This document shows, piece by piece, positions 7,055 to 60,194 of a stretch of DNA of 64,000 nt. The notes beneath the pieces are model-generated. The model was given only the letters and a program-made list of their open reading frames with translations. It was not told where the DNA came from and made no database searches. The first letter of the stretch is position 1. Every line of letters begins with the position of its first letter. This DNA is from Saururus chinensis. Its lineage: Eukaryota > Streptophyta > Magnoliopsida > Piperales > Saururaceae. The stretch lies in the NCBI GenBank assembly GCA_035235625.1, contig CP141140.1:46557351-46621350 (forward strand), given 5' to 3'. Position numbers and translations under genes: made by a program.

Positions 7055-9428
7055 GAGTTTTTTCATATTACCTAGCTCAATACTCAAATATTCTATATTT
7101 TCTTGATTTTAACACTTAATCCCATATGACCTAGTTTAGGACAAATATACCCTTAGGCCACAACTAAACCTATACCCAAGCTCTTAGCTCAATATTGGTG
7201 AAAAATTACCCACGATAGCACAAATTTGTATGAGCAAAATCAAAATACTCAGCATATAGAAAATAAATCACCCACTTAAAGATGATCGATAGAAAGTAAA
7301 AAATTTCTCATTCTCAATCCTGTGTTCCAAAGAACAAACCAGAACAGAGCCACCTCCCGGTTTCAATCGAAAAATTAGTTCCTAGGTAAAAAAAAGATTT
7401 AACAAAATTCAAAACAAGGAATCAAAGGAAGCCACTTTAGTGCTTGCTGAATTGCAACAAACAAAATGTTTCGGCAATCTGAAAAATTGGGTTGCATTTA
7501 GAACTGATTGAAGGACTCCGGAGACTTGCCACAAATGGGGATTGAACGCTACAAAAAGAAAGGATTTTCGGGAGTACAATGAATCCGAATGAAATCAGGT
7601 AGAGTACGTCAACTTTGCATGACTTGTGAGACTTCCGAGAATGTGAGAACGAGAGGATGGCTTCTCCTAAACAGGCCAAAGATCTCACGCTTCGCATGGC
7701 CTGTGGCCAACACTTAATCCATATCGCATATACGATAACTCGATATGTCTATAAAATGTATTTTTAATAATACGATATGTATTCTTTAAGCCAACAACCC
7801 ATAATATGATATCCTCTATATCGCATATACAATAACATGATATTCGTCATAGCGTGTTATCGATAACACGATATGCCAACAATGTGTGTTATTAATAATA
7901 CAATATGCTATGATATCCTCTATATCGCATATACGATAATACGATATTTGCCAAAGCGTATTATCAATAACACGATATTTGCTATAGCGTATTGTCAATA
8001 ATATGAGATTCGCTTTAGCGTGTTATTGATAACACGATATTGTGGCATATCGTGTTATTGATAACACGATATTGTGGCATATCGTGTTATCGATAACACG
8101 ATATGCCAACAAGACATGTTATTCATTTTCCTCTATATCTCATTATTATAACATGATATTTGTCATAGTGTGTCATCGATAACACGATATTTGCCATAGC
8201 GTATTATCGATAACACAATATGTCAACAATGCGTGTTATTGATAGTACAATATGCTACGGTATCCTCTATATCGCATATACAATAATACGATATTCGCCA
8301 AAGTGTATTATCAATAACACGATATTTGCTATAGCGTATTATCAATAACATGAGATTCACCATAGCATGTTATCAATAACAAGATATAGTGGCATAGCAT
8401 GTTATCGATAACACGATATGCCAACAAGATGTGTTATTTATTTTCCTCTGTATCACATTACTATAATATGATATTTGTCATAGTGTGTCATAGACAACAC
8501 GATATTTTCCATAGCGTGTTATCGATAACACGATATTCACCATAGTGTGTTATCGATAACATGATATGCCAACAATACATGTTATCAATAATACAATACG
8601 GTACGATACCCTCTATATTGCATATACAATAATACGATATTCGCCAAAGCATGTTATTGATAAACGATATTTGACATAGCGTGTTATTGATAACACGATA
8701 TGCCAACAATAAGTGTTAATGATAATACGATATATCGCATATACTATAATAGGTTATTCATCATAGCGTGTTATCAATAACACGATATTCGTCATAGCGT
8801 GTTATTGATAACACGATATTCACCAATATTTGTTATTTATACAATTGTTCATCAAGTCAGGGATAAAAACCTCTAAGATCGTGTACATGCTTACATAAGA
8901 TGTTCTACATACTAAAACTTGCATATAAAAATCATACTAGAGTCCCTCTTTGCATAAATGGCTATTCTACAGTGTCATTCCTCCATATCTACATCTTTCT
9001 CCATTCTTACATAGCTATGTTCTCCCTGGATAGTCCCTCAAGATTCATTTTTTGAGTTGCAGTGATATCTTGATCTCCTTTTGTAAGGATAAATAGTTTA
9101 TGTGGTTAGAAATTTTTGGACAAAAATCAGAGAAGAGCGATCGCCAATGAAGTGAAGGAGGCCGATAATCGCCGAATAGAAATTGGAATTTGTTGTTGAT
9201 GAAAACCGCTGGGGGAAAATCACAAATCGTCATTGAGCTCCAATATCCTCTTTGTGTTTATGCGTCATCACAACTAGTTTACACGATTTTAAACCCTAAC
9301 CTTGTTGAAAGGTATTTTGGTCCATTTTTTTCAAATATTGTGTAAACCTAGGTTCTATGGAATGTTTTTTACAAAACCAGTGAATATGGAATATTTGTAT
9401 CTTTGACCAAGTAATATGGAAAAAACTC
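7055..9428. mobile_element. Non-autonomous Mutator-like element filled with a palindrome array
   Basis: The left end GAGTTTTTTCATATTACC and right end GTAATATGGAAAAAACTC are inverted repeats, with similarity continuing about 60 bp inward. The flanks TATATTTTC (7046-7054) and TATATTTCC (9429-9437) agree at 8 of 9 bases, the 9-bp target duplication typical of MULEs. Removing the element and one flank copy rejoins the gypsy pol reading frame (...FEYLKEI / YPNDEDLEEI...), an independent check on both boundaries. The inside has no transposase. About 7,700-8,830 is the palindrome array and the rest is unassigned AT-rich DNA. The termini closely match those of the large MULE at 45,708-59,518, so that family is the likely source of its transposase. 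Confidence 0.9.
7700..8830. repeat. Palindrome array, core GTGTTATCGATAACAC, higher-order period about 350 bp
   Basis: The array has at least a dozen copies of ATAACACGATAT, most forming the palindrome atcgtgttatcgataacacgat, joined by connectors such as 'atgccaacaa' and 'catagcg'. A longer block beginning 'cctctatatcgcatatac' recurs at about 7,913, 8,263 and 8,611, spacing near 350 bp, which shows higher-order amplification. Many copies carry single-base changes, so the array is not recent. It sits wholly inside the small MULE. On one strand it would fold into many hairpins. Confidence 0.88.
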
Positions 9429-33399: not shown

Positions 33400-33474
33400 T
33401 ATGTCATGAGTTGTAATTTTTTGTTGATTTTTATTATTGTAATATTTTGTCATGGAATAGCCAAAGTGGCAGAT

Positions 33475-35615: not shown

Positions 35616-36790
35616 CATACATGTTTTGAAAGTTCAAGATTAAAAACTATGCTAAGTGTTAAAAGTAAAAGGTTTATTTTCACACACTAATGTACACAAA
35701 TCACTTAGTTATGACTACGAATAATTAATTTAAGTGATTATGGAAGTTTTAGGCAAATTTAGGGTAAATTGAGAAGTTTAATACTAAATCAATTGATCAC
35801 TGGATTTTGTATTGAAGTGATTGATCAGTTAGTGCTTGAAAAAGTCTTTGTAATTTTTGGTTGTGAGTTTCCAAATTGATCACTTGATAAATTTTACCAA
35901 AATGAAAACTGTGATCTATCGATCATTGTCTATCAAAGTTACCTAGTTTAATTATTTTGAAAAACATATCATTTTTAATTGAACTCTATATCTTAAACCG
36001 ACTTAATGACCTCTATAAGAGGTAGCTAAACACGAAATTGAAGTGACAAAAATCTAGAATTTGAGAGAGAGAAAATGAGAAGTACTTTTGTATTAGTTTT
36101 CCCTAAAAATTATCATGTACGTGAGTGATCAGTTTTAATAGTGATTGATTGAGAAGAGACACAACAAAGAGAGTTTTTCATACACAAACTTGAGGAGATT
36201 GTCAGCCAATTCTTCAATAGTCAATTGAAGAGATTCAAAGTTAAAATCAAGTTAAGAGGAATTTTATTGAGGAGGTCAGAAGAGGACAAAATAAAATAAT
36301 GAGGGATAAAACTTCAAGACTTGGGGGAGATGACTTGAATGTTAGTAACAAAAGAAGAATGAGATCTAAATAAAGAGGAGTTGTGTTAGAGTCTTAATGA
36401 GAGGATGGTAGTTTGTTTATGTTATGTAAGGTCTTATTTGCTAGTATTTTAATTTTAGGTCAAGAGTAGCTGCCTTAGTTTTTACTTTAGTTGGGGGTTT
36501 TTATGTAAAAAATTTTATATGTTCTTGCATGCTTAAGATATGAATTGTTAATAAATTGATTATGAATGTATATAAAGTTTAGGTTTCTATTGTTTCCGCT
36601 TTGTAAATAAAGAGTCCCGTTAGTATGAGCCCGGGCGCATTCCGGCGCGCATGCGCCCGGGCTCATACTAACTTTTCCCGTAAATAAATTCTTGTGCATA
36701 AAAGTTAAATTTTTTAATTTTTACTAGTTAAAATATTAATTTTAAGAACATTTTAGTGATTTTTTAAGTTGATTAGACAAAATACATAAA
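35616..36790 (+). repeat. Older truncated R-family LTR, copy 2
   Basis: It is paralogous to 26,382-27,405, keeps the roughly 100-bp block missing from copy 1, and carries the 69-bp hairpin insertion at 36,611-36,679. No coding sequence is recognised. Confidence 0.6.
36611..36679. mobile_element. 69-bp hairpin insertion with 8-bp target duplication
   Basis: Arms of 22 bp pair perfectly (from GTTAGTATGAGCCCGGG at 36,619 to its inverse ending 36,671) around a 10-bp GC-rich loop. The 8-mer GTAAATAA flanks both sides (36,603-36,610 and 36,680-36,687). The paralogue at 27,283-27,290 has one GTAAATAA and no insert. The outer ends (agagtccc and ttttccc) resemble the ends of the larger MITE at 43,914-44,113, suggesting an extreme deletion derivative. 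Confidence 0.9.
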
Positions 36791-36849
36791 AAAATAATGA
36801 TACTACAAATATTTCCACCATTGTAGCCATTGGTTGAAAACTAGGCCTC

Positions 36850-37234
36850 TAAAATCAACAGTTTTAGAATGACAAAATAACTTTATCACATGTGAAACTC
36901 AACTCTACCATGGTTCTTCTTGGATTAAAACTATGTTAACCATTCTTTATCTAATAACCTTATAAAACAAGTTTTAATATAACATAGAAAAAAAAAGGTC
37001 TCACTGAAAATAAAAGAACTTATGTGCCCCATGCTCAATGAAAACTTCATGTAACAACCAGGTGGCGTAAGAAAATCATCCGCCAAATATCCTTCAAAAA
37101 GTCCCGCCATCGCCCCTAGCAGAAATACAATATCTCCTCTCCGCGCTATTTTTTCGGAAAGAAACGGAAAAACGGAAAAAAGAGCAGTCGCCGCCAGGTC
37201 TGAACACCTCTGCATTTCTCCGCAAAATTTGGGC
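36850..37234 (+). promoter_or_regulatory. Putative promoter and leader of the myosin-binding protein gene
   Basis: This block lies directly upstream of the first ATG and is conserved in the duplicate at 28,059-28,436. It contains a TATA-like 'cttataaaac' near 36,959 and a GC-richer leader (37,040-37,230). Promoter function is inferred from position only. Confidence 0.5.
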
Positions 37235-38779
37235 ATGGAATTTCCCTCATTCGTTTATTTCTCTTCTGTTTCTGGCTATTACAGTTGGCGGGGAAACACA
37301 GCGCCGGAGCGGTGGAGGAGAAGGAAGTTCTCCCTGGCCCCGGGCCCTCCCGGGTTTCCGCCTCATTCCCTTCCCTTCTCTCTCTGCCCCATGTACCCCG
37401 ATCCCGCTCCGCCTCCTGGGGCGGAGCCTCCCGCCAGCCGGTTCAACTGCGGCGATTTTCCGGCGGACGGTGTGGCGAATTCCGGACCTCGTGTGGTAAA
37501 GAGGAAAGTTGACAAGGTGATGGGTGAACGTTGCTGCCAGGATGCTCCGGCAGGCTCCTCCGCGGGGGAGGATGGGGGTGTTTCTTGCATTGCGCGAGTG
37601 GAGGTGGAGAACGAGTGCGCCGCGCTGCGGGAGGCGCTGGGCAGCCACCAGCAGACGATGCGGGAGCTGTACACGGAGCTAGAGGAGGAGAGGAATGCAT
37701 CGTCTTCGGCTGCTAACGAGGCGCTGTCGATGATCCTGCGGCTGCAGCGGGAGAAGGCGGAGCTGCAGATGGAAGCGCGGCAGTACAAGCGATTTGCGGA
37801 GGAGAAGATGGCCCACGACCAGGACGAGATCCAGGCGCTGGAGGAGCTGATTTACAAGCGGGAGCAGCTCATCCAGGCCCTCAATTGCGAAATTCGGGCC
37901 TACAAGCACCGTCTGCTGAGCCTTGGCCACGGTGAGGACTACGAAGATGAAGCGACTGAGATCGAGGTCGATGCAACAGAGGATGATGGAATTCAGAATG
38001 TGCTTGAGCAGAATGGCGGACACGAACACAAATACCCTTCATTTGATTACCCTGCTCTGAGATGCAGTATGAACGAGGCACCTGATTCCCCAGGTGCGGA
38101 AAAATGTGTTCTTGAGGGTTCTCCCCATGTCTTGGACCATCTGCAGAATTTGGAATATCGGATTGGGCAGTTGGAGAGGAATCCTGACAACAATTTAACG
38201 AATCAGACATTTGCAAATGGCATGAATTTGTTGGAGAAGACAATGGTAGAGCAGTCTCCAAGGCAGGTTCGACATTATCGACAGCTCTCCCAAGATAGCC
38301 CTCGTTCTTTCATTGGGATGATCCCAACAGAGAGCCCGAGGCTTGATTGCGTGGGAGCCAAGAAGAGGGACGACAGTGTGAGAATGGATGACAACTTGTT
38401 TCAGAAGAAAGTAGGTAATGGCTCTGAGTATGGAGATGACATGAATGATAGAGTGTACACTATTGATTCAATTCAGGGTGTGCCTTGTAATGGAAATGTG
38501 CTGAATGGATATGAAGATTACATCACTACACCAAGGGAGTCTGTGCCGAGGGTGGATATAGGGGAAGGGGAAATAACAAAGCTCTATATGAGGCTTCAGG
38601 CACTTGAGGCAGATAGGGAATCAATGAGACAGTCATTAATTTCTGTGAGTAAAGATAAAGCGCAGCTTGTATTGCTGAAGGAAATTGCCCAACATCTATG
38701 CAAAGAGATGGTGCCGGAGAGAAGGCTGGTTGTGAAGAAACCATCAACTCGGATTTTCTCGTTCATGTCTATAGTGAAG

Positions 38780-38833
<54 letters not shown>

Positions 38834-40343
38834 TATAATCTATACATCTTACAGATTTTCACATTAAATGAATGAGTAAATCTTCTATGTTGTTGAGATT
38901 AGGCCTTTGCCAATGGAGATCCGTAAACTCTAATCTGTGTGACACAAGTCTTTTGTGTGGCTTAAGGTTGCATGGTGTGATTATAGTGTTTTTTCCGCTC
39001 GTGTCCTGTTGTTTGAATTGAGTTCTTGAAATACCATATTTCCTGAATTAGACCTTTATCAAGGAATAGGTGTATAATTTATAATACATTGTAACCGAGA
39101 TTTTTCAGAGTGACCTAAGATTCATGATTTGAATTTTATATGGTTTCTAAGTTCTGGTCTTCTTGTTTGCATATGTTCAGCATGGTATTTCTCATGGTCC
39201 TTTGTTTAATGCAGTTCTTTGGTAGAAGATAATATACAAATAGACTTGCCAAACACTTGATTAGTTGGGGGTCATATTATATATGAGGACTTGCACCTGT
39301 GGCTACAAAATACGGTTTCCTCGTGAATTATGTAATGTACATGGTGCAACTTTTTCTCCTATTCTAGATAAATTATATCTAAAAAAAATTTCATACTCAG
39401 AGAAAATATAATTTGTAGTTTGTCAAGTATGAATCTACTGAAGTTGCTTACAACGTATACAAATTAGTAATTACTGGGATACACTTAAGTTTCTCCTGTA
39501 CAGAATCATGTATCACAATTGTCTTCTTTCTTAGATAAATTATTACGTTTTTAAATTTGTACTTAATGAAAATAGGACTTGGAGTTTGACGAGTATGACT
39601 CTAGTACAGAATTATGGATTCGCAGAATCAGTATAAAAAGATAAAATTCCATTTAGTTTTGTTGATTTTATGCTATTTTTTCATATATCTGTCTTATTTA
39701 TCTACATTTTTCTGTGGAAATTTCTATACTGAAGTTATTCTTGTTTCCTTGTGATTCCAGTGGGTTCTGTCCTTTGTTTTCTGGAGAAGGAAAGCACAGA
39801 GTACCAAGTGAGTAAACTTTTTTTTATCGTTCCTCAGATCCATTGTTTAGCTGGGAACAAAGTTACATCCCACCCTGGAAATTCACCTTATCTGTGCTTG
39901 AGAAAAATGAGGTGAATACGTGCTTTTGATTGATCCACCTATCAATGTGATTTCATCAGCTTAAAAATCTAAACATTTTGAATCTTATGTTTGTTGTTCG
40001 TCTTTTAATGTTTGGACAACTGTATCCTCTTAATTATCATTTTTGCTGCTGTATTTGAATTACCAATCATGTTAGATTGATATAGTAAACAAGGACCAAT
40101 CAGTTTTTGAATGAAAGTATCATTTTTGCTGCGTGTGCATTTAGTGATATCCCGTTTCTAGTAACTATTACTAATAGTACATTATAAATAAACTATTAAA
40201 AAATATATCACATGCTTGTTTTAAATATGTGATACAGGTCCATGTTTGAGCCAACGGACAATAGCTTGGGGTTACCACTATTGTTTGAAAAATCCCCACG
40301 TTCGAAGCCGCTCAGATGTTTATCCAGGTCATCAAGAATATGA
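37235..40343 (+). CDS. GTD-binding (zein-binding/DUF593) myosin-binding protein, three exons
   Basis: Exons at 37,235-38,779, 39,761-39,807 and 40,238-40,343 (stop TGA 40,341) give about 565 residues. Residues about 122-230 form the GTD-binding coiled coil, from VENECAALREALGSHQ through ELEEERNASSSAANEALSMI and ARQYKRFAEEKM to LNCEIRAYKHRLLSLG. Members bind the globular tail of class XI myosins and act as membrane receptors for organelle transport. A second coiled coil lies near residues 445-475. The tail FMSIVK|WVLSFVFWRRKAQSTK|SMFEP...GLPLLFEKSPRSK, built from three exons, matches the C-terminal hydrophobic/FWRRK block usual in the short MYOB subgroup. Introns are in phases 0 and 2. The start could instead be ATG 37,391 (MYPDPAP, 52 residues shorter). 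I prefer 37,235 only weakly; its frame is also open in the duplicated copy. No breaks are seen and the gene looks functional. Confidence 0.92.
38782..38833 (+). repeat. (CT)n(AC)n microsatellite at the 5' splice site of intron 1
   Basis: The intron begins GTTCTC at 38,780 and becomes a pure CT repeat within two bases (38,782-38,816), then (AC)8 (38,818-38,833). If the intron is retained, the frame runs on through the repeat to a stop near 38,875 and the FWRRK tail is lost. Confidence 0.9.
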
Positions 40344-44759: not shown

Positions 44760-45707
44760 TACCCCATTTCTTATTTACCTCTAATAAAATTTTTAAAATT
44801 ACTCATCTATACCCACAATATTATGAAATTTTTTTATTAACCCTACCCCTTCCTCCCTCCTCCTCCTCCTATGGCGGTACTGACAACAACCGACCAGCGA
44901 CCATCAAACTCTTCTCTTTCTTTTTTTCCTTCTTCTCTTCTACCCTCTACCTAGCAGCGGTCATGGCTTCCTGGCCGCACCAGTGACCAGCTGCCAGGCC
45001 AGATCTGCGATGCCTGGCCTATTCCCTGGCTGCCGCTGCGAGGCCATATCTAGCCTTGGCCATTGTTGCTAGGGCCAGCAATAGGCCGTTAGGCCAAATT
45101 TGTATGCATTTACATGCAACCTGTCATAGTATACACTTAAGTCTCATTGCCTCTCCTTAACTCAATTAACAAGTAAAGTAACATTCAATGCAATGCAAGA
45201 ACATACATTTAATACCCTACTCCTTGCAACACATGATCATCAACCAATTTTATATCAAATATTTTACATATCCCATGTAGAATTCTTAAGAAAATTAAGG
45301 GTGAAATCATGATGTGCTATACCGAATTCATAAAAAATTACTCAACGTAGTTTGTAATTCCATATGTTTAAATTGAGAAACATTACCACTTCACAAGTGA
45401 AATCTAATAACCCACCTTTCAATTAATTTCCAAATTAAGTCTTCCACTTTACTTGCACATCTTTTTCAAGGTGTGGTGTTCCTAGACCGCATGTATGCAT
45501 CTGGATATGGCCTTGAAGGCTATACATTCCACACCTCCAAAGTCTCTTGAACTTCTACGGACTATTTTTGTAATGCCATGGTGAACCACCACACAAGATT
45601 TCTATATTATTAATTATCCAAGCCTAGAGATGTCATTGCATCTGTTTATAACCATTGTGTTTGCTACAACATCTTTCATTTCCACTTATTATCTTGATTA
45701 TAAGTTA
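44760..45707. other. Intergenic DNA, nothing recognised
   Basis: It has a C/T-rich tract (44,845-44,945) and a local repeat of 'ggccagatctg/ggccatatctag' (44,995-45,100). No ORF, TIR or LTR was seen. Confidence 0.5.
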
Positions 45708-45853
45708 GAGTTTTTTCCATATTACTTGGCCAAAGAATGGAAAATTATATATTCCCTGAATTTTATATGGAAATGCCATAAAACCTGGAATAACACGATA
45801 TAAGGTAAATTTTGAACTAAAATACCCCTAACCGGATATATGGTTTTATATCG

Positions 45854-48800
45854 TGTAAAACCCTCACGAAGTCGCATTCATTGGCATACGACATTAGACA
45901 CCGGCAAATCCTCTAATTGAAAAGTCTTTCCGATTGAAAAAGTCTTTGAGTACAAGTTCTTTCACAACCTTAAAATTATTCGTACATACATGCATAAGTC
46001 CAATATATAATACATTTCTCTCACCTTAAGCAAAACATGAGATCGTAGCACCAAACTCCACATAACCTCACCGTGATTTCGCTACACTCTAGGTCGAGGA
46101 AGAATTGTCCACCACGGGAAAAGTCCAATCTCAATAGCTAATGATTGACCTGCAAAAGCCTCTAGTCGAAGGGGCTAAAAAGATGGGGTGAGTATTTTCA
46201 TACTCAGTAGGAAAATACCCAGTAGGGGAAAAATATAAATTAATAAACCCCGTAAGTTCATATATAGATGCTTCCATGCAATCACACATGAAGCAAATAG
46301 AATAAGAAGTATAAATATGGTCACTCATACAAATCATCGTATAAACTGAACTTATACTTACTCATACATCATACTCTTACACTTACACTCTGAATCAGTC
46401 TTATCAGCTTACTCGTACAAACGTATGCTTACACTTACAACATATGCCTACTCGTACGACCTTATTCGTATGAACTTACTTGTACAACCTTACTCGTACA
46501 ATCATGCTCTTACACATAAATGTACTCTTACATCTTCCTTAGAAGCTTACACTTACACTTACGCTTACCGTCTGAATTAAAGTCTCACAAACTTACTCGT
46601 ACAACATACTCATACTCATAAACTTACTCTTACTGTCTTCTTAAGAAGCTCACACTTACTTTAAATCTTACACGTACAACTTACTCAGAATCTGAAACCT
46701 ACAACTTACTCTTACGATTGTACACATACTATCGATAACTGAAGCTCATTATAATTAATAAGCTCCAGCGTCGAAAAGGAATGCAATGCCACTGGGGCAT
46801 CACCTTAACCTTCGGGGAGCAACTATACACCATGGACTTTTTCGAAGGCAAGGCACACCTATTCTCATGGGGCATAGGATTAAACAGGTAAAAGCAGATC
46901 CATGATACTACTTACCTGAGCGCGCAAATGCCCACTCTCTGGGGCCATATAGTGCCAACAAGGGCCATACAATGCCGACTAAGGGCGAAAAACATACAGT
47001 GCCACTCTTAGGCAGGAATCTTACAGTACCACTCTTGGGTAGAACATACAGTGCCATCGGTAGGCAGAAAACATATAAAACCCACAAGGGCAGAAACTTA
47101 CAGTGCTCTCAACAGAGCATCAAACGTCTGGGCCAAAAATATGACACCAAGACTAAATCCCACAGGAAAACACCATGGCTAGACTAGAAAGGACGCTCAG
47201 TCAATTACTTATCGACTGGCACAAAAATGGAACTTAATCCATTGAAACCCTCAGTCTCAACCTCACAACATTATAAAATTAGGGTTACTTACATTCAAGT
47301 TCATATTAGATAACTTATGCACGTATAATTATGATCGGAATGACTTCCATCTTACAAATCTCTGCACAGTCTTACTTTAACTCGTAATCCATACTAATAA
47401 TCTTACCATCATACATTTACGGCCTTACATCTTACACCATCCACCATAAAACTGAATCACCTTACCTGAACTCCTCATATGAAACCACCCTTAGACTTAA
47501 GTCCCGATATCATACCCTTACTAATTCCTTACTCATTATTTTTCAGTTACAATTCATATTACATACATTATGCGGTACAATTATTTAGTCCACTTTCACT
47601 AATTCACAATCCCCCAAAGATGTTAAGAACCCTGAATCTTCCCAATCATGACATCGCTTAGGTATTATACTCACTGCTCCAATGTACTACCCAACTCAAT
47701 CCAAGCCAATTCTTCAACCTCATCAAATCCAACCTTCGACAGTCTATCTTACATCTTTTCTCGTTTGTCATACCATCACCATTTCCATGTCGTAGCCTAC
47801 GAAGCACCCTTCCGACAACTTACAAACAAAGGCACGTACTCGTGCTCATCGGCCACACATATTTATCAGGTACTCAAATCACACACATACAATTCACTAA
47901 TTACTTACTGTCATACCTTTAGTCCTCAATAACATATGTGTGATTCACATATATAAAGCATGCTCATTCAATTAGCATTATCATGCAAACCATTAAATTA
48001 TAAACTCCTAGTATGCTACTACACAATCAAAGCATGCTATAATGAAATTACGAGTTCAAGGTCCCCTACCTCGTAATCCACAGGAGTTTGATGGCGAGCA
48101 AACAATGGTGGCGGCGTCGATAGCGGACTAGGTGGCCAAAAGCATTGCACTGAGAGAGTTGTTGTGTCCCGAGGATTTTCAAAGATGCTGGAATTAATCT
48201 CGATAAAGTTAGATTAATTTCACTCGAAGCCAAAGGTTTGGACGCACTAAGGCGGCCGGACACAAGGTCATGCCACTAGAAATGACAAAAGCGACCACAG
48301 AATGGAGGTTGACTGATTGGAAGTCGGCCAATGGTTTAAAATACGTTGTTGGCCACAAAACATTAAAATGGACAGCGGACCACATCCAACGGCAGCAATT
48401 CTGCATCATTGAAGTCTCACAAGGTGGTGAAGGGCTTTAATGGCCATATTGCCTAGTGGTGGAGACGTTTCCTAAACATATGTTGAGGCACTAAGGCCCG
48501 GTGTAAGAGGCCGACAAAGGCAGCGCCATTTCTAAATGCTACTCACAACCAATTCATCGTACGGATAATTGTGCATTAAGCACGACTTACGGTGGAGGAT
48601 ATGGCACGGCATCGGTCGAGCCTTCGATGGGCCAAGTTTAATGGCTGACTGTGTTACTTCCGCTTGGAAGGATCTGAATTTGAGGACTCTTTCTTCATAT
48701 GTTCCGGGTTGTGTGTAATAGAAAGTGGGGGTGCAAAGGTAAATTCAGGCCAGAAGTGCTGGCCTTAGCCGTCACTGGGCCGGGGTAGAGCCCATTTTGA

Positions 48801-50454
48801 TTGGATCTGCAGCCTAAGTTCACAAAATCCCAAGCTAAACACATTGGCATGGGTTGGAGTGGGGCCCATTAGCAGCAATCAGAGATGTATCCTAAAGTTT
48901 AGGGATGTCTGGTGTGTGCAAAAGATGTGCAAAGGAGGTCGGGAGCGGCGGCCCCTTTCTGATATTGGGTAAAGCCGACATCTGCAGTGTTTGCAGCAAA
49001 ACAACACTATAGCAAAATAGCCAAATAGAAAATTGAAGAGACCCAAGACCTAATTTAGGTAGGGTGACAGGGCGCTAAATTGGGGCGGCAAACATGCCTT
49101 ACCGAGCTACGAACGGCCCGACATGGCCAGGGGTTAGACCTGGGAGAAGACAGGACTTGGTAGTCGCCGGATTGTGGCAAGTCAAATGGACGTTGACTCG
49201 ATGTTGTATGACATCCGATAGCAAAAAATGAATGTCATGATCGAAAACTATACTCTAATGTAGGTCAGCCGAACAAACGAATCGGAACCGATCGAGGCGA
49301 ACGGGGCCAAACCTCGACACCTTGCCGTCATCGGCTCGAGACAAAGCAAGTGAAGAGCAGGTGAGGTGAGCTGAGCTCCTCCGATAACTCAGCATAGAAA
49401 AACAACCAAAAATAAATAAATGTTCTGGGAGAAGGCCAAAGGCCGAAGATCAACGGCACAGTTGTGGTTCACAATGCCAAGAAATAGGAAAATAAGGAGG
49501 GGTTTTTGATCCCGTTCGAAATAGGGCGGAGGAACTAAGGGAGATGGCGGCCAAGGTGGAGGCTGGGGTGGTAGACTTGTCGGTGCTGGGCTGGGAGAAG
49601 GCCCAAGGCCGGACCACGGTGGCCGGCGACCAGCGGCCACAACAAATAGACACAAATAATAAAAACAATGGCAGTGGTGTTTCTTACCTCACGGGGGCGA
49701 AGCGGGGGCGGGGAGGTTGGGACGGATTTGCCAGAGGTCACAGTAGCCGTGGCGGCAAGTCTAAGGCCGTACAGTCGACGGCAGCGGCAAATCCAGCACG
49801 ACAATAGTTCAAGGACCGAACTGGGGAAGAAGGAAAAGAACGGCGGGGGACGGCGAGAAGGCCGGGACGGCGGTGGCTGGAGGTCGCTTTGGTCGGGGTG
49901 GAAACTATGGCGGCGGTTTGGAAGCCATGCAGGCAGAGGCGGCGGCGGATCCGACGAAAGTTCTCAAAAATAGCCACCGGGCCAAAAACGGGAAAAAGGG
50001 AGAGGGGCAGCAGCTGCCAGCAGGGCCAGGCTAGGGAGGTGGTGGCGGTGTCACCATGTCGTGGCTGGCCGGGCGAAAGCCAGCGGCCACCGGCGGTGGT
50101 GCCCTCGGCCTCACACAGTGAAGAGGCCCTTCACTGTTCATTCAGCCGATCGAGCGTGCCTCAGCGCGCCCGATCCGTTTTATGTTATTATTTTTTTTTC
50201 ACTACTCTTTCTTCCTTTCTGCTTCTTGTCTCACACGTCCCGCCTGATTTATGAGCCAAAATTTTTTGTGATGCGTCGAGGCCTCTAACCAACGACTAAA
50301 CACTACTCCTGACTCTTACGATTGCAAATATTACAAATATGGATACACCAATGCGTAAAATTTATTTATTGAAAATATGACCAGAAACTACATAACATTG
50401 CAGAAAATTACAAAAAAATCCTAGAAAAATTACAGAAAAATTAGGGATATTACA
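45854..50454. mobile_element. LTR-B copy 2 (4.6 kb), nested in the large MULE
   Basis: The left end TGTAAAACCCTCACG and right end TTAGGGATATTACA match the LTR-B family with mutations. Collinear blocks shared with copy 1 include 'gaagctcatta-aa-taataagctccagcgtcg' (46,740 vs 18,024), 'ccatgatactacttacctga' (46,902 vs 18,191) and 'tgatggcgagca' (48,090 vs 19,609). The 3' part from about 48,060 is GC-rich. MULE palindrome-type sequence lies on both sides (45,800-45,853 and 50,455-50,480), fixing the host. No coding gene is supported. Confidence 0.75.
46350..47140. repeat. Short tandem repeats inside LTR-B copy 2
   Basis: Degenerate 'cttactcgtacaa' and 'cttacacttac' repeats (46,350-46,720), then 'catacagtgccactcttgggc' repeats (46,940-47,110) and one 'gctctcaacagagcatcaaacgtctg'. 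The order is the same as in LTR-B copy 1. Confidence 0.75.
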
Positions 50455-50649
50455 TCGCGTATGTTTGATAACACGATATATATACTTATTGTATAAATAG
50501 AAGTTATTTAGAGAATGTGAATTGACACGACTATTGATTATGGTCATGACCTATTGTTAATATACATATATTTATCCAATTTTGCATACGTAAAGTTAGA
50601 GTATTACATCAAATTGCGGAGTCAGTGAAGACGGCAGAAGAGAAGAAGA

Positions 50650-51397
50650 AGAGAATCTACGGAAGAAGATCGGGTCTGGGAATGAATAGTTTCCTCACTG
50701 GATAGCGTATATCAAAAGACCTTATATATTCACGTCTGGGATGCAAGGCCATCTTGGTAGAGACTGGGTTATACCCAGTATATGATTGTGAACACATCAT
50801 CATCTCTAGGTTGCTCTTGGATGTTCTCATTGGTGAGTGTTGGGACAACTCATAGGAGGTCTTCAACATAAGGGGCAAATGACTACCCCTTACTGTGGAT
50901 GAAGTGGCAATGATCACGTTTTTTAGTGGAAAAGGGAACCCGTGTAAATTGGAAAGTAGCGAGGGGAAGGCTGCCCAATGCAAGGGGCAATTCTACAAGA
51001 AGTTCTTCCAAGGGAAGCGACCGGAGAAGATAGAAGAAATGTTGAAAGAAGTGGCTGCCGAAACACGGACTATTTCAGATGAGGACTTAGCACAGTTGGC
51101 TATCATGCACATGAGTGTCCTCGTGTTATTCATGCAGAGTAATAGAGTTGCATCCCCAGCTCTGTGTGATTACATAGATGACCTGTCGGTTGTGGGGAGC
51201 TACAATTGGGTTGGCGCCATACATGATATGTTGATGAGAGGCATATCAGTAGCCCACCAGAACATCATGAGCAGACAGGATGAGCATTCCGCCATGGCCG
51301 GGATTCTCGTTGGGGCTTCATTATGCTCCAGGTAATGCTCATATGTTTTATACCATGAGAAAATCTATTGTCATATATCTATGGACACGATATGTTT

Positions 51398-51429
<32 letters not shown>

Positions 51430-54315
51430 CATGGTATCACTCACAAGATATGAAGTCAATCGTGTTATCTGGAATACGACGTATAACACGCACATAGACC
51501 CATGTACGCAGGTACAAAACTAATTATAATATCATGTATAGGACATTACACGATGGTTATCGGGAACACTATGTGGCCTAAGAGCGTGTTCTCGGTAACA
51601 CGACTAAATTGTCATACTTACGCTTCTGACCATTTACACTACTGACCATTTTCTTTTGTATTGTCCGCCAAGTATGGTTTTATGAGCATACGTCCATATG
51701 GACTCCCAGTTGTCCTCCATATAGCCCAAGGTGCAAGAGGTGGCCCAGATTTACCCAACTTCTGAGTGATGTGGAGAAGGCTGATAAACTTGACCCAACC
51801 AACGAAAAGGCAAGGAAAAAGATTCTAGCTCATCATTGGATGAGGAAGTGGTACAAGGAGGTCTTCATGTGGCTGAAGCCAGACTCACAAATTATTATGA
51901 GAATCAAACCAATTGCCAAAGAGGCACACTTGATGGATGGCCAAAGTGCGACCCCGAAGGCTAAGAAGGTGGGTATGTAGACTTTCCGACCAATGAGACC
52001 CATCCATGCCCTCCACAGCGAGATGTCAAGGCATGTACATTCTGGCCAGGATGTCATTGAATCATTCTTCTTGCCTATTGATGTCATGACCGGAATATGT
52101 AATGCTATTTTGGAGAAGGTTGTTCTCTACGTTTAGCGGGGATGGAACACGAAGCGAGTTGAAGCTGCACTCCAACGTGTTAAGAACGATATAGAGGTGG
52201 CAACTAGCCTCATAGAACATATGCAACCCCTTGAATAACTAGAGATAGAAGAGTCGCATGAACCCCCTCAACCGGAAGTCCGTCATGCATCAACCCCTCC
52301 TCCAATAACCGACGGATCGCAGTTGGTTCATGTTAAGTCAAGAGCTTCAAAATCCAGAGAAGCTCACCAATCATATGCCTATGAAGATCAACTAGTACTT
52401 GTCCCTCAACCAGTGGATGAGGGATTCATTTTGAGTAAGTACGACATTTTAATGTATCGTGTTTTATATTGGTATATTCATATAATCGAGTACACGATAG
52501 CCTAAATAGTTGTGCATTAGGAAAGATGATTTTGTTATGGCCATGTCATCGATCACACGATCATTGAACCAAATGTTACTTCAGAAAATAATTTGGTTGT
52601 GGTCGTGTTATCGTTAGCATGATTAGCCCTGTTATCTTTTTTCCATCAATACGATATGTAGTTTCATCGTGTAAGGTAAAAGACGATTGGTGTGCATCTC
52701 GTTTATTTACTAATGTGACTGCTTACTTCTTAAATGCATAGAAAAGGTAACCGCAAGCTGCCTCCAAATTGAAGAAGAAGACTGGTTTGAAGTTGCAAAG
52801 GACCGTGATAATAAGATTTTTAACTAAACTAAATGCAGAATTCTTGGAACAACCCCAGGAGGTCGTGGAACAACCCTGGGAGGTCGAAGAAGCCAGAAAG
52901 CTGGTTCTAGCGCTCCCTTCTTACCTCATGTGCCCCGGAAGTCTAGGTCCACCGTCATTGAACCACCTGCTCAAGGTGAGGAGGCAGTCAAGAAAGTCTC
53001 TTCTCAGGGCTCGAAGAAGCCGAAGTATTTCAGCAGCTACGTTGATGAGAAGTTAGCCAAGTTTGGACACATTGCCCAAAATGCAAAGCCTAGTAACGGA
53101 GTTCCTCTGGCATCAGTCCCTGGCCCATTCATTATCCGTCTAGCACATCCAAAGTCTCCCACCCTAGAACGATCAGGCTCAACTGCTGGCTCCAGTGGTA
53201 GCACTTTGTCGGATACTCCTCTAGTTGATGAGGAAGTAATGGAGAGTATCTACAATGTGATAGAGGTCGAAGAGGATACTGCAAATAAGGAGGATACTGC
53301 GAATAAGGAGGAGCTCGGTTTGCGGCCAAAGAACTATCTTGACACATAGTTGGTGTTCCACATGGAGCTTCAGAAAGAGGCAGTTAAGGACATTATCATG
53401 AAATTTCTGCCGAACCCATACAAGTCGTGGCCCATAGAAACTCTCATCTACACCGACTACCTATCTCCGTTAAAGATGGAGTGCATAAGGAATGAGGTAA
53501 TATCATTTCATTGCTCATACGTATTAACCTCTATCATGTTATTAATTACACGATTGCATCACACGATTGCATCACTGACGAAATTTAACAATTATTTATC
53601 GGTTTATCGATAACACGACCTATGCTCATATTTTTGTTTCCATAATACGCTAATTTTTTACTATATAGTTGACATAGAAATAGTGTATTAGTTAATACAC
53701 GACTTATAAATTCATCGTTTTAGTGTTCATACGATATAATCACTTATCATATAAAAGATGTCACGATCTATCGACTATCGTGTCATTACTAACACGTTTG
53801 GTTTGCTGTAGGTCATAGACGGCTTCCTCCAACTTCTTGATGAATGCAATTTGAGATATCTAGGCATGTACCGCAACTATTTTTTCGGTAGGTTCATCAT
53901 TCAGCACTATTTGAATGTTGGCATGGCCGAAAGGCTGGCAGAGAAGGAGGGCAAACTCCATGGCATATTGTTCAGAGGCCTAAATGTTAACAAGGAGAGC
54001 GGTTTCATTCCTATCTACGTCACGGGCCACTTTCTCTTGCTTATTGCCTGATGTAGGGAGAAGCAATTTAGATGGTACAATCCTCTAAAAGGTGACCACA
54101 GTCACCACTTTGCAGTAGCAGACAGTGTCAGGAAACATGTTGCGAATGGAATGGAGAAGGCCCTTAAGATAAAGGGTGCTCGGCAGTGGCCAATGACTAA
54201 GATCAACAAATGCCCATACCAGGAAACAAATGAAGATTGTGGTTTGTACGTCATGTACTACATAGCGAAGCTGGTAGGGGGCATCCTTCAACCTAATTTA
54301 GACAACTCAAGATAA
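50650..54315 (+). pseudogene. MULE-borne Ulp1/C48 SUMO-protease-like gene with plant DUF1985-like N-terminal part, decayed
   Basis: Four exon blocks are read at about 50,650-51,332, 51,671-52,435, 52,742-53,496 and 53,813-54,315. The first has the LPLTVDEVAMITFFSGKGNP block typical of DUF1985-type MULE proteins; the second begins VWFYEHTSIW. The third is low-complexity and acidic with a tandem EDTANKE repeat near 53,275. The last carries the C48 protease core: His in VTGHFLLLI (about 54,030), YNPLKGD where the catalytic Asp is usually found (here Asn), and the Gln/Cys block CPYQETNEDCGLYVMYY (about 54,213-54,263). Ulp1 enzymes cleave SUMO from targets. In-frame stops (for example near 50,852, 50,880, 51,978), a shift in exon 3 near 52,930 and one at about 54,049 (between LLLIA and EKQF) rule out an intact enzyme. 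All three introns carry the element's palindrome. Confidence 0.82.
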
Positions 54316-54536
54316 CAGGTTTGGTCAAGGTGAAGATCTATGCTACTATTCTTTGGGCCTGAATCGACGAGGAATTTAATCCGGATGTAGATGAATTGTA
54401 ATTAGAAAATAGACTTTTTTCATGCTGCGATTAACTAACAAATTTGTTTTTTTGACCCCCTATTTTGTAATTATCCACTAGAATAGAAATACATGTTGTT
54501 ATCATGTTTGTTTTACATGAAGTCGTGTTCAACCAA

Positions 54537-54645
54537 GTGGCATCTATTCAATCAAACTATATGTGCCAATGTCATGTCACAAAAAGCAAGTTGCATCTAT
54601 TCAATCAAACTATATGTGCCAATGTCATGTCACAGAAAGCACGAA
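54537..54645 (+). repeat. Two tandem copies of a unit of about 55 bp
   Basis: 'catctattcaatcaaactat' followed by 'atgtgccaatgtcatgtcac' occurs twice in direct order, almost identical. It lies just downstream of the Ulp1-like gene and is probably noncoding. Confidence 0.9.
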
Positions 54646-54934
54646 CAGGAAGAAAAAATATTTCCAATCATATAATAGTTCTCACGATAGTCTCTTAGGT
54701 TGTGTTATTGCATACACGCCATCTACTATGGTTGATTGTTAGTAAGAATACGATTGTAGTATTAATACTTGGAGATGCATGGCCGATGATGATGTCATGT
54801 AATCAAACAAATGATATCGACAGATGTTGTTTAACCGAACCGATGACCAATCGATCTCAGCAAAGAGGATGGTCACAAGATAGATTCAAACAGAAAACCA
54901 AATAAAATAATGCTCTAGATGACCACGCTGGAGG

Positions 54935-55320
54935 ATGTTGATGACAGATAGGGCGCGAATGCGATGGATCATTCGAGGCATTGATATATCGCCGTCTAGT
55001 GAGTCATCTCCTCTATCGGATATAGGTGATGACAATATCCGATGGATGAGCGATTTACCAGCTGCTGCTAAAGTAATCTCCCAAATGACTGGTCTCCACG
55101 AAGAACATGAGTGTGTCTATGATCTCCCTACACACTCCACTGATATGGCATGACTACGACGAATCATTAGAGCTATTGATATATCGCCATTTAGTGAATC
55201 ATGCTCTCTGTCAGATATATGTGAGGACCATATCCGATGGAGGGCCGATTCACCAGCCGCCGCTAAAGCAATCTCCTTAATAATCCGTCTCGGCGCCGAA
55301 CACACGTTGGCCAAGCCCTA
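54935..55320 (+). pseudogene. Two-copy peptide repeat, unknown MULE accessory coding stretch
   Basis: A unit of about 190 bp is duplicated (54,955-55,085 and 55,145-55,275). In one + frame the units read RWIIRGIDISPSSESSPLSD and RRIIRAIDISPFSESCSLSD, followed by IRW and PAAAK(V/A)IS in both. One stop (TGA, 55,152) separates them. Keeping the same frame across both copies hints at former coding, perhaps a 3' exon or a third MULE gene. I do not recognise the domain, and the - strand is also open. Confidence 0.45.
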
Positions 55321-55329
55321 ACCCTAATA

Positions 55330-55780
55330 TATAGTGAGACTGGAGCATGAAGGTTCATATGGCACTGAACCGTTAGGCTAGGCAGCCTGAACCCGATGGT
55401 TCGGCCACACAAGAATGTTCTATCATCCCCGAACCGATAGGCTCGATGGCCCAAATGAGAAGGTCCGGGCTGCACCAGCAAGTGAGGGCTGAACCATGAG
55501 GTTCGGTAAGGTTGCCCTCATTTTGTGTTACCAAACATACGCTGAATATATCTCACGTAGTTCTAATAAGAACATGAGTTACACGTATGGCCGATGATTC
55601 TGTCATGTTTTCGATTATAAGATAAAAATATATAGTATACCCTATATACAACATTTCGTGCTTTAGGAAAATACATTAATTACATATTATGTGTTGTTGA
55701 TAACACAATGCATATACAAAATTTTCAGCTGAAGAACGAGGGTGGAAAAGGTAACCCTGATTGATGCTCTCCTTTCTTAC
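55330..55780. other. MULE internal spacer with GAACCG-type repeats
   Basis: From 55,365 to 55,510 variants of 'gaacc-gtaggct' and 'ggttcgg' recur in both orientations. From 55,510 on is AT-rich DNA with one palindrome variant (gttgttgataacac, about 55,690). No gene is seen. Confidence 0.5.
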
Positions 55781-58700
55781 GTCATTTATGTACTCTATTA
55801 TTCAACCTCCTTCGGCTTGTTGTTGGGACATCTTCCATATTGGGAGGTCCCCCTTGTGCGTTGGTACATCATTTGTGATTGTGACCAAACCATATGTTTC
55901 ACATTTTTGTGGAGCTTCGACAGGTGGTTGTGACTCTATCCAATCTTTTCTAGGACGCCCCTGCTACTTTTGTGGGATAGGTGGGCTGAATGTAGGCATA
56001 ACTCCAGCTGGTGCCCACTAGTGCCTATCCTTCGTTGGGTGTAATGGCTCTCGATAGGTTATTATTCTATACAATTCAGTAGAGTACCATCTTTCGTAGT
56101 CCTCAGACACTTAGAAGTGTCTATTATCAATTGTTGTGACTGCATGCTTACATGGTAGCCCCAGATGTTGAAACTTTCCATATGTGTAGGTACGATCAAC
56201 TAGGTTTACCACATCTTGTGAAGAAAATATTGTGAGTATGAGTGCACGATAAACGACTCTATCGTGTCATCGATTACACGACACAACATACAATCGTTAC
56301 GTAAATCGTATCAACTTACACGATAAATGAAAATAATGTGTACACACTAACACGATAAATGAACATAATGTGTAACACGCTATTTAAGTCACCGTATGAA
56401 TGAAATGTACCTGGTGATATAGCGAGTTAACCTGGAATTCATACATTGACATAGGCAATACAATCACTTTCCTTGCTTCTTCTTGCATGTTTTTAATGTG
56501 TTTACGGGCAAATGGGGTTAACTCTTCCATCATATTTTGTCCGTCTATCTAACATTTTTCAAATAATTCTATGGTGTGCTCCCTCATGTGCTCAATTAAC
56601 CAAGTTATAGGCATCGATCAGGCTTTTTTGAATATTGCATTTGCACTTTCATACCTATTTGAGTTGAGGGTCCCATATCTTTTCCATGGAAATGAGACAT
56701 TGGCCCAGTGCTTCGAACCTATCTTATTTAGCCAAGCATATGCTTCCAGATTATGTTCTTTAATATTGTTCATTGTTTCATCATACACATTATATTTGAA
56801 AGTTTTTGCTGCAACATGGAGCTGATTCTTTAGGTAGTTGTCCTTGAATTTGTCCAGCATATTTGCTACCATGTGATGGATGCAATATCTGTAGTGTGTA
56901 GATGGGAAAAACTGCTTAACAGCATTTTCCAATCCCTTCTGTCTATAAGAAATGATTATATCCAACTTGGCTAGAAGATCAAAGAATGGATGATTTCTAA
57001 GCAAGTCAAGAAACCAACACCATGTTTTCTTGCACTCATTCTCAACTACTACAAATGCAATGCACAACATATTATTGTTCCCGTCTAGTGTAGTTGCTAT
57101 CAATAGCTGTCTAGGATACTTTCCTGTCAAGAAAGTTGCATCTACCATTAGCAACAGCCTCAGTGTTGTTCTGAAAGCTCTCACAATGGGGCCAAACATC
57201 CACAATATTCTTTTGAAATCGTACCCAGATATAGGCCCAGGAATATCATATGATCTCACTAGAACAAATACACTTCTCGAATTTATATATTCTATTTGCT
57301 TTCTATAAGCATCAAGTATGCGGTAGGATTCATTTGAATCCCCATCTATTAAATCAGTGAGTGCTTTACCTGCACGACTAAATACAATTTAGTAAAGGTT
57401 ATATGACAGTGGCTTATATCATGTTCCCAAGCACACGACATTGTTTGTATTCGTGTGATCGAAATCCATGCATGATGACTAATCATGTTCATGTTAACAC
57501 GATATTTATGTATGTTGTGTGAGCATTTAATGCGAATGTAGTATAAGTGTGTAAACGATAACATGGTAGGCTAACATATCGTGACACTAAATCAACACTT
57601 CAATTATTCTCATGCATTACCTATGCGCAGCATTTCTTGTAGTTTGTAGTTAAGCACCAGTGTTTCCAAATATAACTTGACATAATCTTAGGTGTAATGT
57701 CCACTGAGTCTTTAAACATGTCATAACATTTTCTGGCAATCCAAAGGTGCGATGCTAGGGGATGGTTAGTTAACTTCCCTTGGGTTCCACAATAATGATT
57801 TAGCACTAACCTCATGATAGTCACATGATCTCCTATATTTGAAGCCCTTATGTACCAGTTACAAGAATGTCACTTTGCGGCGTACATATTCCGGTTTTTA
57901 TCCACTACACAGTATGTGAAATTTGCCTTTATTGCTAAGTCAATCAAGACCCTCTTGAAATGCAATAGGATTAGAAAATGTGCACCCAATTCAAGGAGCT
58001 TTTGGTAATCCTTAGCTTGCAAACTACCCGTCATTAGCTCGCCTTCACCAATATTCGGTTCCAACATGTTTAAATCATTTATTGTATCCCAATCTGCCTC
58101 CACCTCAATGTCAACATTACTGGGAACCTTGTTATTTCCAAATTCTTCATGGTCAGACATACTTTCCATGCCAATTATATCATTAGCGTACCACTGATCC
58201 TCACCCCACATATTTTTAACTTCTTCGCCTTCTTCACCATCATAATTACAAGGGCTATATGGAGGTTCGTTGTTATCAAATGAAGTCCTTGTCCCACCCA
58301 TCGTTGGCGACAATTCCTCCGATCTATTCCAATTGACTTCATTTTAAGGTTCTGTACTCATTGGATTGGTGAAATAAGATTGGCATGGATTCATTGAGGA
58401 CAAGTTTCCCAGTTCTCCCAATCTGCATTCCACATTATCATGTTAAAAAAATGCAACATCAATCGACACCGTGTATTCGGTTAACACGCTTAAAATTCAA
58501 AGCGTGTTATCGAAACCATGAGATGAATGCATGTCTTGTTATTATAACTACGCTGCAACTCATAATTGGTATATCACATGTGTATGTTGTATAATTACTA
58601 ATGTGATATATTACACGTCGTGTTAATTTCTTCACATGATATGATTTTAACTTAACACGATATGGTCGATATCGTGGTCTCGAGTACACGAAAGAGTCCA

Positions 58701-59277
58701 ATTGCTTATAATCTCAAGATTCATTGTTACCTGACAGTTTCAAATGTGAACTGTGTTTCATTGAATCCGGTATGAAATCCGACATTAAAGCTGGGATGAG
58801 CCATTACCATCGGTGATTTAACTCTATTGACTGTCTAGTTCCTTTCTACGGATGGTGATGGTGATTTATCACATTGTCGGGCTCTTTCATCTCTGCATAC
58901 AATGATAACACCTCCTTATTCGCCTTCTTATGAATGGAGAACACTGATTAGAGGTCCTCATCGTCTTGTAATTCATATATCATGGATGATTGGGAGGATG
59001 GAATTAAATACTTCAAACTGACATTACCATTGACAGAAAGTTATGCTTTGAGTTGCCTTAGCAACTCACCGAAGCTCACCGATGAATGTATGTTCATCAA
59101 CCGTGTCATTCCACCAATATACACACCATCATTGCCTACCTCTCCTTTATAATGGATGCAAATATCAATCCTATCCATGATTGGTGAAAAAGAAGGATTG
59201 ATTCTGTGAAATGCAGCCCTTGTAGCACTCAACAGCGTCTGTGTGTCAAAAAATATTTTTTTCTCTTTTATCAACAC
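55780..59277 (-). pseudogene. MULE transposase (MURA type), multi-exon, inactivated
   Basis: Read leftward from 59,277. The N-terminal region (to about 58,740) has MDRIDICIHYKGEVGNDG and SLYAEMKEPDN. The DNA-binding part at 58,313-57,621 has DLAIKANFTYCVVDKNRNMY, CNWYIRAS and NHPLASHLWIA. The catalytic domain at 57,366-56,430 has the first Asp in MVDATFLTGKYPRQLLIATT, then IISYRQKGLENAV, HYRYCIHHMVANML and YGTLNSNRYESANAIF. The SWIM region at about 56,225-56,040 reads YGKFQHLGLPCKHAV, then GRPRKDWIESQ. Such proteins cut and paste MULE DNA. Damage includes stops in the N-terminal exon (59,041, 58,940), TGA in place of a Cys codon at 57,870, Tyr in place of the second catalytic Asp (near 56,943), and RTYTY where SWIM fingers have a C-x-C pair. 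It cannot be active. Confidence 0.87.
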
Positions 59278-59518
59278 TCACTGGGGAGTCACTACCAATC
59301 ACCTCCTGCCAGAGACTTCCGTTTGCCACTGATGACTCCCGACACACCGGAACGGTGCAACACTATTCCGGTATTCATTTATTACTTTCTACTTTAAAAT
59401 ATATGATATAGTGGAAACCTAAGAGTAGTTTTGTCCATAAACATGTCATATGGCATTTTCGTTTAAAATACAGGGAATATGGAATTTTTCATTCTTCGAC
59501 CAGGCAAAATGGAAAAAA

Positions 59519-60194
59519 GTTATGACTTTTTCATACCTAACCTAACCCACATAGGATTTGAGTAAAAAACAAGTACAAACATGACATATAATGATCAAAT
59601 ATTATTAAATCACATAAAATATCTAAACATGATTTCTAGAATAGGCCATTTTCTCATATAACTAACATGTGTGGCACATTGTCAAACATGAAGATATAAT
59701 AACCCTTACATTGATAATCCAACGTACATATCCCCAACCCTTATTCCATTAATCACACGAATGATGAAAATAATATGATAAACATTAATTAAAACAATAT
59801 GAACACTCAATCAAACCTAAACAAATGTGTGGATCAAATATGCTAATTTCGCCCAAAATGGAAGGATTTGACGCTATGGCTAATTCCAAATTAATCAAAA
59901 ATATACCTAGAGACTCATATTGTTATGAAATTTTAAAACAAACCAATTAAAGGTGTTAAAGGCTAAAAATTAAATTTGGGGTTCAAACCACTAAATATTT
60001 TTAACTATGAATTTTAAAATCACTTCATAGTACTTGACTTTATGCGCAATTGGAATTCCTCACCATAACTTAATGGAAAACTACTCAAATTAAACCAATT
60101 TTTTTTCTAGATAAAAAAACATGTGAGACTAAGTTCATAAGAAATTTGGGATAAAAAATAATCAATTTAGTCACCAAAAAACATGTTGGGATAC
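59519..60194. other. AT-rich intergenic DNA, nothing recognised
   Basis: There is no ORF, repeat boundary or RNA gene I can support between the MULE right end and the R-family LTR. Confidence 0.5.

Follow-up and report, generated by a model that had tools for sequence, protein, structure and literature searches.

According to the accessible parts of the relevant papers, DUF1985 is a domain of the Arabidopsis VANC proteins, of which VANC21 binds clusters of the motif YAGTATTAY in the introns as well as in the intergenic and terminal noncoding DNA of VANDAL21; the targets of VANC6 bear a different motif, and VANC targets expand through tandem repetition (Hosaka et al. 2017, PMC5735166). The published VANC motifs are 9 bp (YAGTATTAY) or 8 bp long (AGTTGTCC and AGTTGTAC) (PMC5735166; Sasaki et al. 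2023, PMC10398659). With the same restriction as to the sources, some VANC genes bear a Ulp1 domain (KIU) and recognise noncoding motifs of their own group (2026 review, PMC13317346), the KAONASHI Mutator-like elements (KI-MULEs) carry, in reverse orientation to the transposase, a gene with a Ulp1 domain (Benjak et al. 2008, PMC2528002), and the VANDAL clade includes members with terminal inverted repeats (TIRs) of 46-174 bp (PMC6446971). The 64,000-nucleotide stretch of Saururus chinensis contig CP141140.1 analysed here (the window) harbours element B, a decayed Mutator-like element (MULE) of the autonomous type in which a gene coding for a DUF1985-Ulp1 protein and a transposase gene converge between TIRs, as well as a related element A, and both contain copies of a 24-bp dyad-symmetric palindrome, TATCGTGTTATCGATAACACGATA. 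As judged from sequence comparison, the arrays formed by this palindrome most likely represent targets of the VANC type with a new, dyad-symmetric motif in a MULE that has TIRs of about 100 bp.

With up to three mismatches allowed, the palindrome has 13 matches in the window as compared to a mean of 0 across 100 shuffles, 12 of them lying at 7,850-8,818 in element A and one in element B (56,260), where the sites are degenerate. A symmetric weight matrix was built from 25 sites of the element A array alone and then run on all other DNA of the window. At a score of at least 3 it finds 31 sites in the 3,845 bp of noncoding DNA of element B, none in its 5,289 bp of exons and none in the 53,565 bp of other window DNA, and the top 31 matches outside the training array are without exception located in introns, intergenic DNA or 5' noncoding DNA of element B. 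An earlier, sequence-only reading of the window had placed the palindrome in each of the six introns and between the genes but in none of the exons, which is borne out by the matrix; its list of sites stands for element B but left the array at 7,850-8,818 unmentioned. With the score lowered to at least 0, all six introns are occupied (4, 4 and 7 sites in the plus-strand gene; 3, 3 and 4 in the minus-strand gene), and elsewhere in the element there are 7 sites in the intergenic DNA, one in the 5' segment from 50,455 and none in 59,181-59,520.

Dinucleotide shuffles (n = 200) of 3,777 bp of noncoding segments of element B yield a mean of 0.78 and a maximum of 4 sites, and chance or low complexity as the source of the palindromes is ruled out by these shuffles together with those of the mismatch scan and the control with the reversed core (see below). 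Shuffled exons (200 dinucleotide shuffles) give a mean of 0.25 and a maximum of 3 sites compared to none observed; since these counts are about the same, the exons are devoid of the array without any demonstrable depletion below chance, and a selective clearing of exons finds no support in them. Neighbouring sites in element B keep a register of 31-32 bp, which is about three helical turns: 10 of 25 gaps measure 30-34 bp (null mean 1.5, maximum 6 in 5,000 placements), and 16 of 25 measure either 30-34 or 61-66 bp (null mean 2.7, maximum 12 in 5,000 placements). The exon limits used in these counts were drawn from open frames, homology and the intron limits of the earlier reading, and because the copy is decayed the splice sites are not proven. 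The features of the two elements, with the number of sites at a score of at least 0 where given, are as follows.

7055..9428 (no strand): element A, a non-autonomous relative with TIRs of about 100 bp; flanks TATATTTTC / TATATTTCC, alike in 8 of 9 bases
7722..8818 (no strand): tandem palindrome array of element A with 25 training sites (29 at a score of at least 3) and a period of 31-32 bp
45706..45802 (no strand): left TIR of element B, which matches the right end at 80.5% across 77 bp and has half-sites nearby (45,791 and 45,849)
45871..50454 (no strand): foreign repeat inside element B, limits approximate, probably a retrotransposon piece; blocks in common with 17.5-19.7 kb, e.g. 46,720-46,928 at 88.5%
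50455..50705 (no strand): 5' noncoding DNA of the plus-strand gene with one palindrome (50,455) in the matrix scan
50706..51332 (+): DUF1985 exon block, frame broken; DUF1985 match with E 4.6e-5 and 23.9 bits, under the cut-off of 35.1
51333..51673 (+): intron 1 with an array at 51,427-51,605 (4 sites)
51674..52436 (+): exon block 2, frame broken, from homology to copies C and E (see below)
52437..52741 (+): intron 2 with an array at 52,476-52,656 and a weaker site at 52,665 (4 sites; gaps of 63, 62 and 32 bp)
52742..53497 (+): exon block 3, from open frames only
53498..53811 (+): intron 3 with an array at 53,532-53,799 (7 sites; gaps of 65, 32, 50, 34, 32 and 31 bp)
53812..54398 (+): exon block 4, Ulp1 (Peptidase_C48), E 2.5e-8 and 34.5 bits, above the cut-off of 20.7
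54399..55744 (no strand): intergenic DNA separating the two convergent genes, 7 palindromes
55745..56225 (-): 3' exon of the transposase, SWIM-like; SWIM match with E 0.0015 on a single piece, under the cut-off
56226..56430 (-): transposase intron with an array, best site at 56,260 (3 sites)
56431..57366 (-): transposase exon with the MULE domain PF10551, E 1.3e-18, above the cut-off
57367..57620 (-): transposase intron with an array at 57,417, 57,481 and 57,545; the homologous intron has 2-3 sites in all 6 of 6 further copies
57621..58319 (-): transposase exon with the N-terminal DNA-binding region; DBD_Tnp_Mut match with E 0.0091, under the cut-off
58320..58740 (-): 5' intron of the transposase with an array (4 sites)
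58741..59180 (-): 5' exon of the transposase, from an open frame and DNA similarity to copy C and the copy at L007
59425..59518 (no strand): right TIR of element B, matching the left TIR and both ends of element A

The PF10551 match places element B among the MULEs, and the left TIR likely belongs to it despite the roughly 4.6 kb of foreign repeat lying ahead of the genes. This repeat block (45,871-50,454) and another at 17,500-22,000 are related to each other, contain short tandem repeats and a GC-rich part, and are probably copies of one retrotransposon, one of them lying inside element B. VANDALs are characterised by three genes (VANA, VANB and VANC); two genes were recognised in element B and likewise in copy C, no search aimed at a third gene having been made.

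The assignment of the plus-strand gene was made through its family. In the genome, a 516-Mb assembly of 11 contigs, the N-terminal part of the element B protein has at least 181 matches (127 of 2,845 candidates scored, including the window's own), and among those listed, the ones covering residues 1 to about 211 mostly have an identity of 62-76%. When 23 loci of such relatives were compared with 49 of 150 matches to the DUF1985 family, 14 coincided in their coordinates, 13 of which lie above Pfam's cut-off for DUF1985 and one only together with its frame neighbours; a pair among the 14, with the same score, could be a duplication. Because the set was partly chosen for overlap, these coincidences demonstrate membership and not a rate, and by them the Ulp1-like protein family of element B is assigned to the DUF1985 family. 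As DUF1985 is a VANC domain, both the reader gene and the layout of its presumed targets look VANC-related. The proposal of the sequence-only reading that the palindrome forms a self-recognition code resembling that of VANC appears right in kind, in that the motif is element-wide, noncoding and family-specific, and its further statement that the motif differs from the published ones holds; the code's supposed independent origin, however, finds no support, given the DUF1985 membership of the gene family.

In the Ulp1 domain of element B (54,052-54,312) the His, Gln and Cys of SENP5 are aligned, and Asn occupies the position of SENP5's Asp, which is perhaps a trait of the family. The motif YNPLKG of element B reads YNPPKG in copy C, where the Cys is lost (EDYG). 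The transposase has two homologues in a large protein database and at least 186 matches in the genome (74 of 5,462 candidates scored), and for the DUF1985 half of the element B protein no homologue was found in that database at E<=0.001. The Ulp1 domain lies opposite to the transposase in element B, and the convergent order is found also in copy C. Among 18 neighbouring transposase/DUF1985 pairs picked by eye from the matches listed, 14 converge across a gap of less than 9 kb, three converge across 10-15 kb, and one (contig C10, 8.59 Mb) is not convergent; the 14 pairs beyond B and C concern the DUF1985 end of the gene.

The palindrome pattern holds generally among the copies read. Copy C (contig C1, about 62.339-62.354 Mb) is bounded by a TIR on either side, and its transposase and DUF1985-Ulp1 genes converge as in element B. 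It contains 31 sites, 30 of which lie outside coding BLAST matches, and the remaining one has its centre (24,813 in joined coordinates) just within such a match, whose edge apparently extends beyond the conserved exon end; 13 of its 22 gaps below 130 bp measure 30-34 bp. The DNA of elements B and C aligns in blocks at 68-74%, and these blocks include the transposase introns 57,367-57,620 and 58,320-58,740 of element B; the introns of the DUF1985-Ulp1 gene lie outside them and yet have sites in both copies. Six further transposase copies, mostly selected for few stop codons from a first set of 20 and with an exon identity of 56-78%, have 15 sites in 1,530 bp of homologous intron, where the copies align with one another, as compared to one in 10,143 bp of exon (L051, position 693, score 3.3), and 6 of their 9 intron site gaps are 63-64 bp. 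One of these six transposase copies, L052, is part of the same element on contig C7 as the DUF1985-Ulp1 gene read at L060, and the two are counted once as copy E; the L060 part has 9 sites, 3 in the 5' DNA and 6 behind exon 1. Eight of them are outside coding matches, and the ninth (1,931) sits within the initial 40 bp of a coding match that apparently begins ahead of exon 2, which starts at about 2,020; the rest of the two exon blocks is free of sites. A spacing of 31-32 or 63-64 bp was found in every class of copy read. Neither in the window copy nor in the other copies, most of which carry stop codons, do exons or unrelated DNA reach the site density of the introns, as the sequence-only reading had predicted; the palindrome is a short motif arrayed in the noncoding DNA of its own family and rare elsewhere, as are VANC targets.

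Small TIR-bounded elements, in which none of the family's genes was detected, contain the densest arrays read. The genome has the exact 24-mer at 6 places including the window (control 0), and its 16-bp core GTGTTATCGATAACAC has 829 occurrences (reversed control 0). In 20 kb read around each of the five other exact 24-mers, four loci (L005, L009, L011, L013) each contain an A-like element that has both TIRs and between 24 and 57 sites; at the fifth, L007, there is a partial transposase copy having one TIR and sites both before and behind its exon. Five further core loci (L055-L059) were hand-picked from the list for contig C1, with clusters favoured. Both TIRs are present at L055, L056, L057 and L059, L058 has a 20-site array with no TIR detected within 3.2 kb, none of the five gave a match to the transposase or the DUF1985-Ulp1 protein, and 99 of their 132 site gaps are 30-33 bp. 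Both TIRs are hence found at 9 of 11 exact-core loci read (A, L005, L009, L011, L013, L055, L056, L057 and L059). TIRs were found in A, B, C and other elements, with at least 40 copies in the genome (40 of 1,284 candidates scored). Element A, whose two ends are 67% identical, consists of TIRs and the array, and no genes were recognised in it. Of seven elements tested for a 9-bp target duplication, L009 and L011 have a perfect one (that of L011 being AT-only), A has 8 of 9 bases and C has 8 of 9 only with a one-base shift, and none was convincing in B, L005 and L013. The arrays of A and of other elements show tandem repeat formation, in agreement with the local copying suggested by the sequence-only reading, and their size varies from 24 to 50 sites at a score of at least 10 across five elements. 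At the three CpG positions of the palindrome, TG or CA is present in 41% of cases among coding copies and in 44% among arrays, which fits past methylation but is no proof of it.

Compared with VANC and VANDAL as far as these are described in the accessible texts, the S. chinensis family is alike in being a MULE with an extra DUF1985 gene, in having a short motif, particular to the family, whose arrays occupy introns as well as intergenic and terminal noncoding DNA and which is seldom found in exons, and in targets that are formed by tandem repetition and diverge between lineages. It is unlike them in its 24-bp dyad-symmetric site with a spacing of 31-32 bp, where the VANC motifs have 9 or 8 bp, and in the fusion of Ulp1 to the gene. 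It also has TIRs of about 100 bp, whereas those of VANDALs are described as degenerate, and so does not show the absent or degenerate TIRs by which VANDALs are recognised. Since the clade described in PMC6446971 has TIR-bearing members, however, this is no strict VANDAL feature, and with such members already on record in what is accessible of that paper the novelty is limited. Like KAONASHI and KIU, the family encodes its Ulp1 domain in a gene that runs against the transposase; the Arabidopsis KI-MULEs are called non-TIR in the source available, and neither such a motif nor gene-less array elements are described in the portions consulted. A text search with three stretches of the palindrome found no paper, most subscription papers and supplements being outside its coverage. 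By its title and the papers citing it, a study by Sasaki et al. of 2022 (EMBO J 41:e110070) is said to deal with antisilencing, Mu-like transposons and VANC systems including KIU and eudicots.

By analogy with VANC, the palindrome probably serves as the site at which a dimeric protein from the family itself binds, for which the DUF1985-Ulp1 protein would be the best candidate, and this protein probably removes silencing marks. It would bind the arrays in the introns, the intergenic and the 5' DNA of its own family, as VANC does in Arabidopsis, and take the marks off them, possibly by demethylation; arrays in every intron would spread binding over the whole element, and elements made mainly of TIRs and array might be served in trans. 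Because arrays fill the introns and the intergenic DNA and a relative of VANC is encoded, the transposon probably labels its copies so that they can be rescued from silencing.

Several observations weigh against this explanation. Element B is broken, the DUF1985 score of its protein (E 4.6e-5) and that of copy E (E 1.6e-6) are below the curated cut-off, copy C has no DUF1985 match at E<=1, and all three proteins have weak matches to the Plant mobile domain. Compared at the level of profiles, B and C match the second DUF1985 lineage (see below) colinearly but weakly (E 0.005, probability 7%). The same score threshold also gives a background of 13 matches in 101 kb around other DUF1985 loci and of 2 matches in 22.8 kb beside the elements of R5. 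Since transposase introns align between copies, including B and C, their sites can go back to a common ancestor instead of representing independent events, and in aligned introns the sites are only weakly better conserved than the spacers (0.74 in site columns versus 0.67 in spacers, with 17 of 238 circular shifts as high).

Finally, the binder could be the transposase. Subterminal repeats of CACTA and Ac elements are transposase binding sites, and the palindromes might likewise be sites needed for transposition and not for anti-silencing. A palindrome would suit a dimeric DNA-binding protein, the transposase has a weak match to a DNA-binding domain, and elements without recognised genes retain TIRs and array, so that the array could be a cis requirement for mobility. 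However, the palindromes are not near the ends, as none lies in 59,181-59,520 and in copy E the TIR extends to 174 with no site before 643, and they occupy all six introns plus the intergenic DNA of element B, which makes transposase sites an unlikely explanation. Somewhat less likely still is a functionless, satellite-like repeat that spread by slippage within one transposon family and was inherited with it, insertions into exons having killed the gene. Tandem arrays of changing copy number, exon counts that equal chance and show no active clearing, and transposase introns that align between copies with a weak excess of site conservation are all compatible with such a repeat; it accounts less well for a site and a register of 31-32 or 63-64 bp that are kept although the transposases are only 56-78% identical, and for the occupation of all six introns of element B including those of the DUF1985-Ulp1 gene, which hold sites in B and C without being aligned. 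RNA hairpins in introns, acting in splicing or as a source of siRNA, would agree with self-complementary sites in presumably transcribed introns but are highly improbable and were rejected for want of covariation between half-sites (667 of 1,212 pairs complementary versus 677 expected if halves vary independently for 101 sites of coding copies, and 2,405 of 3,600 versus 2,433 for 300 sites of ten arrays, the sites having been picked with a symmetric matrix as a possible bias) and because no match to the transposase or the DUF1985-Ulp1 protein was seen around the dense arrays of L055-L059. Since the half-sites do not covary, recognition of DNA, as assumed for an anti-silencing protein, is favoured over that of an RNA hairpin.

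The genome contains a second DUF1985 lineage. Among 30 loci (L019-L048) cut out around the best matches to the DUF1985 family, 28 form one DNA cluster, in which GAAAACTA / TGGAAAACTATAAAAC is repeated in a single orientation and for the most part ahead of the DUF1985 frame. The words GAAAACT/TGGAAAAC have 1 to 29 matches per locus in this cluster, at least 4 in 24 loci, compared to 0 to 2 in the opposite orientation (counts without shuffle control and uncorrected for shared descent, in which overlapping words may count a unit twice), and 0 or 1 match in the DUF1985 core. Elements A and B have none of these words, nor do the other two loci, L031 and L044, the latter of which has a 198-bp tandem repeat in 4.7 copies (23-954) upstream of a different type of DUF1985 frame. 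By these words the second lineage carries a repeated motif different from the palindrome; no solved structure was matched by it in sequence at E<=1.

As to the origin of the introns, a relative of the transposase from the protein database (49% identity over 261 residues) reads without a gap through the position of an array intron when compared with the joined pieces of element B, and in the six further copies two coding matches meet near transposase residue 240 with 234-279 bp between them. Because the relative reads through, this intron was either gained in the lineage or lost outside it, and that the array itself made the intron is a guess. A broader scenario, which is possible at best and clearly more tentative than the VANC-like function of the palindrome, would combine three parts: array DNA created or took over introns and so laid the site through the coding regions at a pitch of 31-32 bp; several DUF1985 lineages have different noncoding codes (the palindrome, GAAAACTA/TGGAAAACTATAAAAC and perhaps the 198-bp repeat); and the TIR-array elements live on, or titrate, the reader protein.

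Elsewhere in the window there is a long direct duplication (23,347-28,726 and 32,612-37,296) with blocks about 91-98% identical. The regions 500-2,450 and 37,055-38,875 contain what by eye we take to be ordinary plant genes, coding for an IQD-like calmodulin-binding protein and a long coiled-coil protein, respectively.

If the palindrome is indeed read by a DUF1985 protein, sequence-specific anti-silencing of the VANC type would extend to a MULE whose TIRs are clear and whose operator is clean, long and dyad-symmetric; such an operator would offer a better start than the short Arabidopsis motifs for learning how DUF1985 proteins read DNA, and the many small array elements should respond in trans. 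Since at least two DUF1985 lineages with different repeated motifs are present in this genome, the co-evolution of reader and target would be testable within one species.

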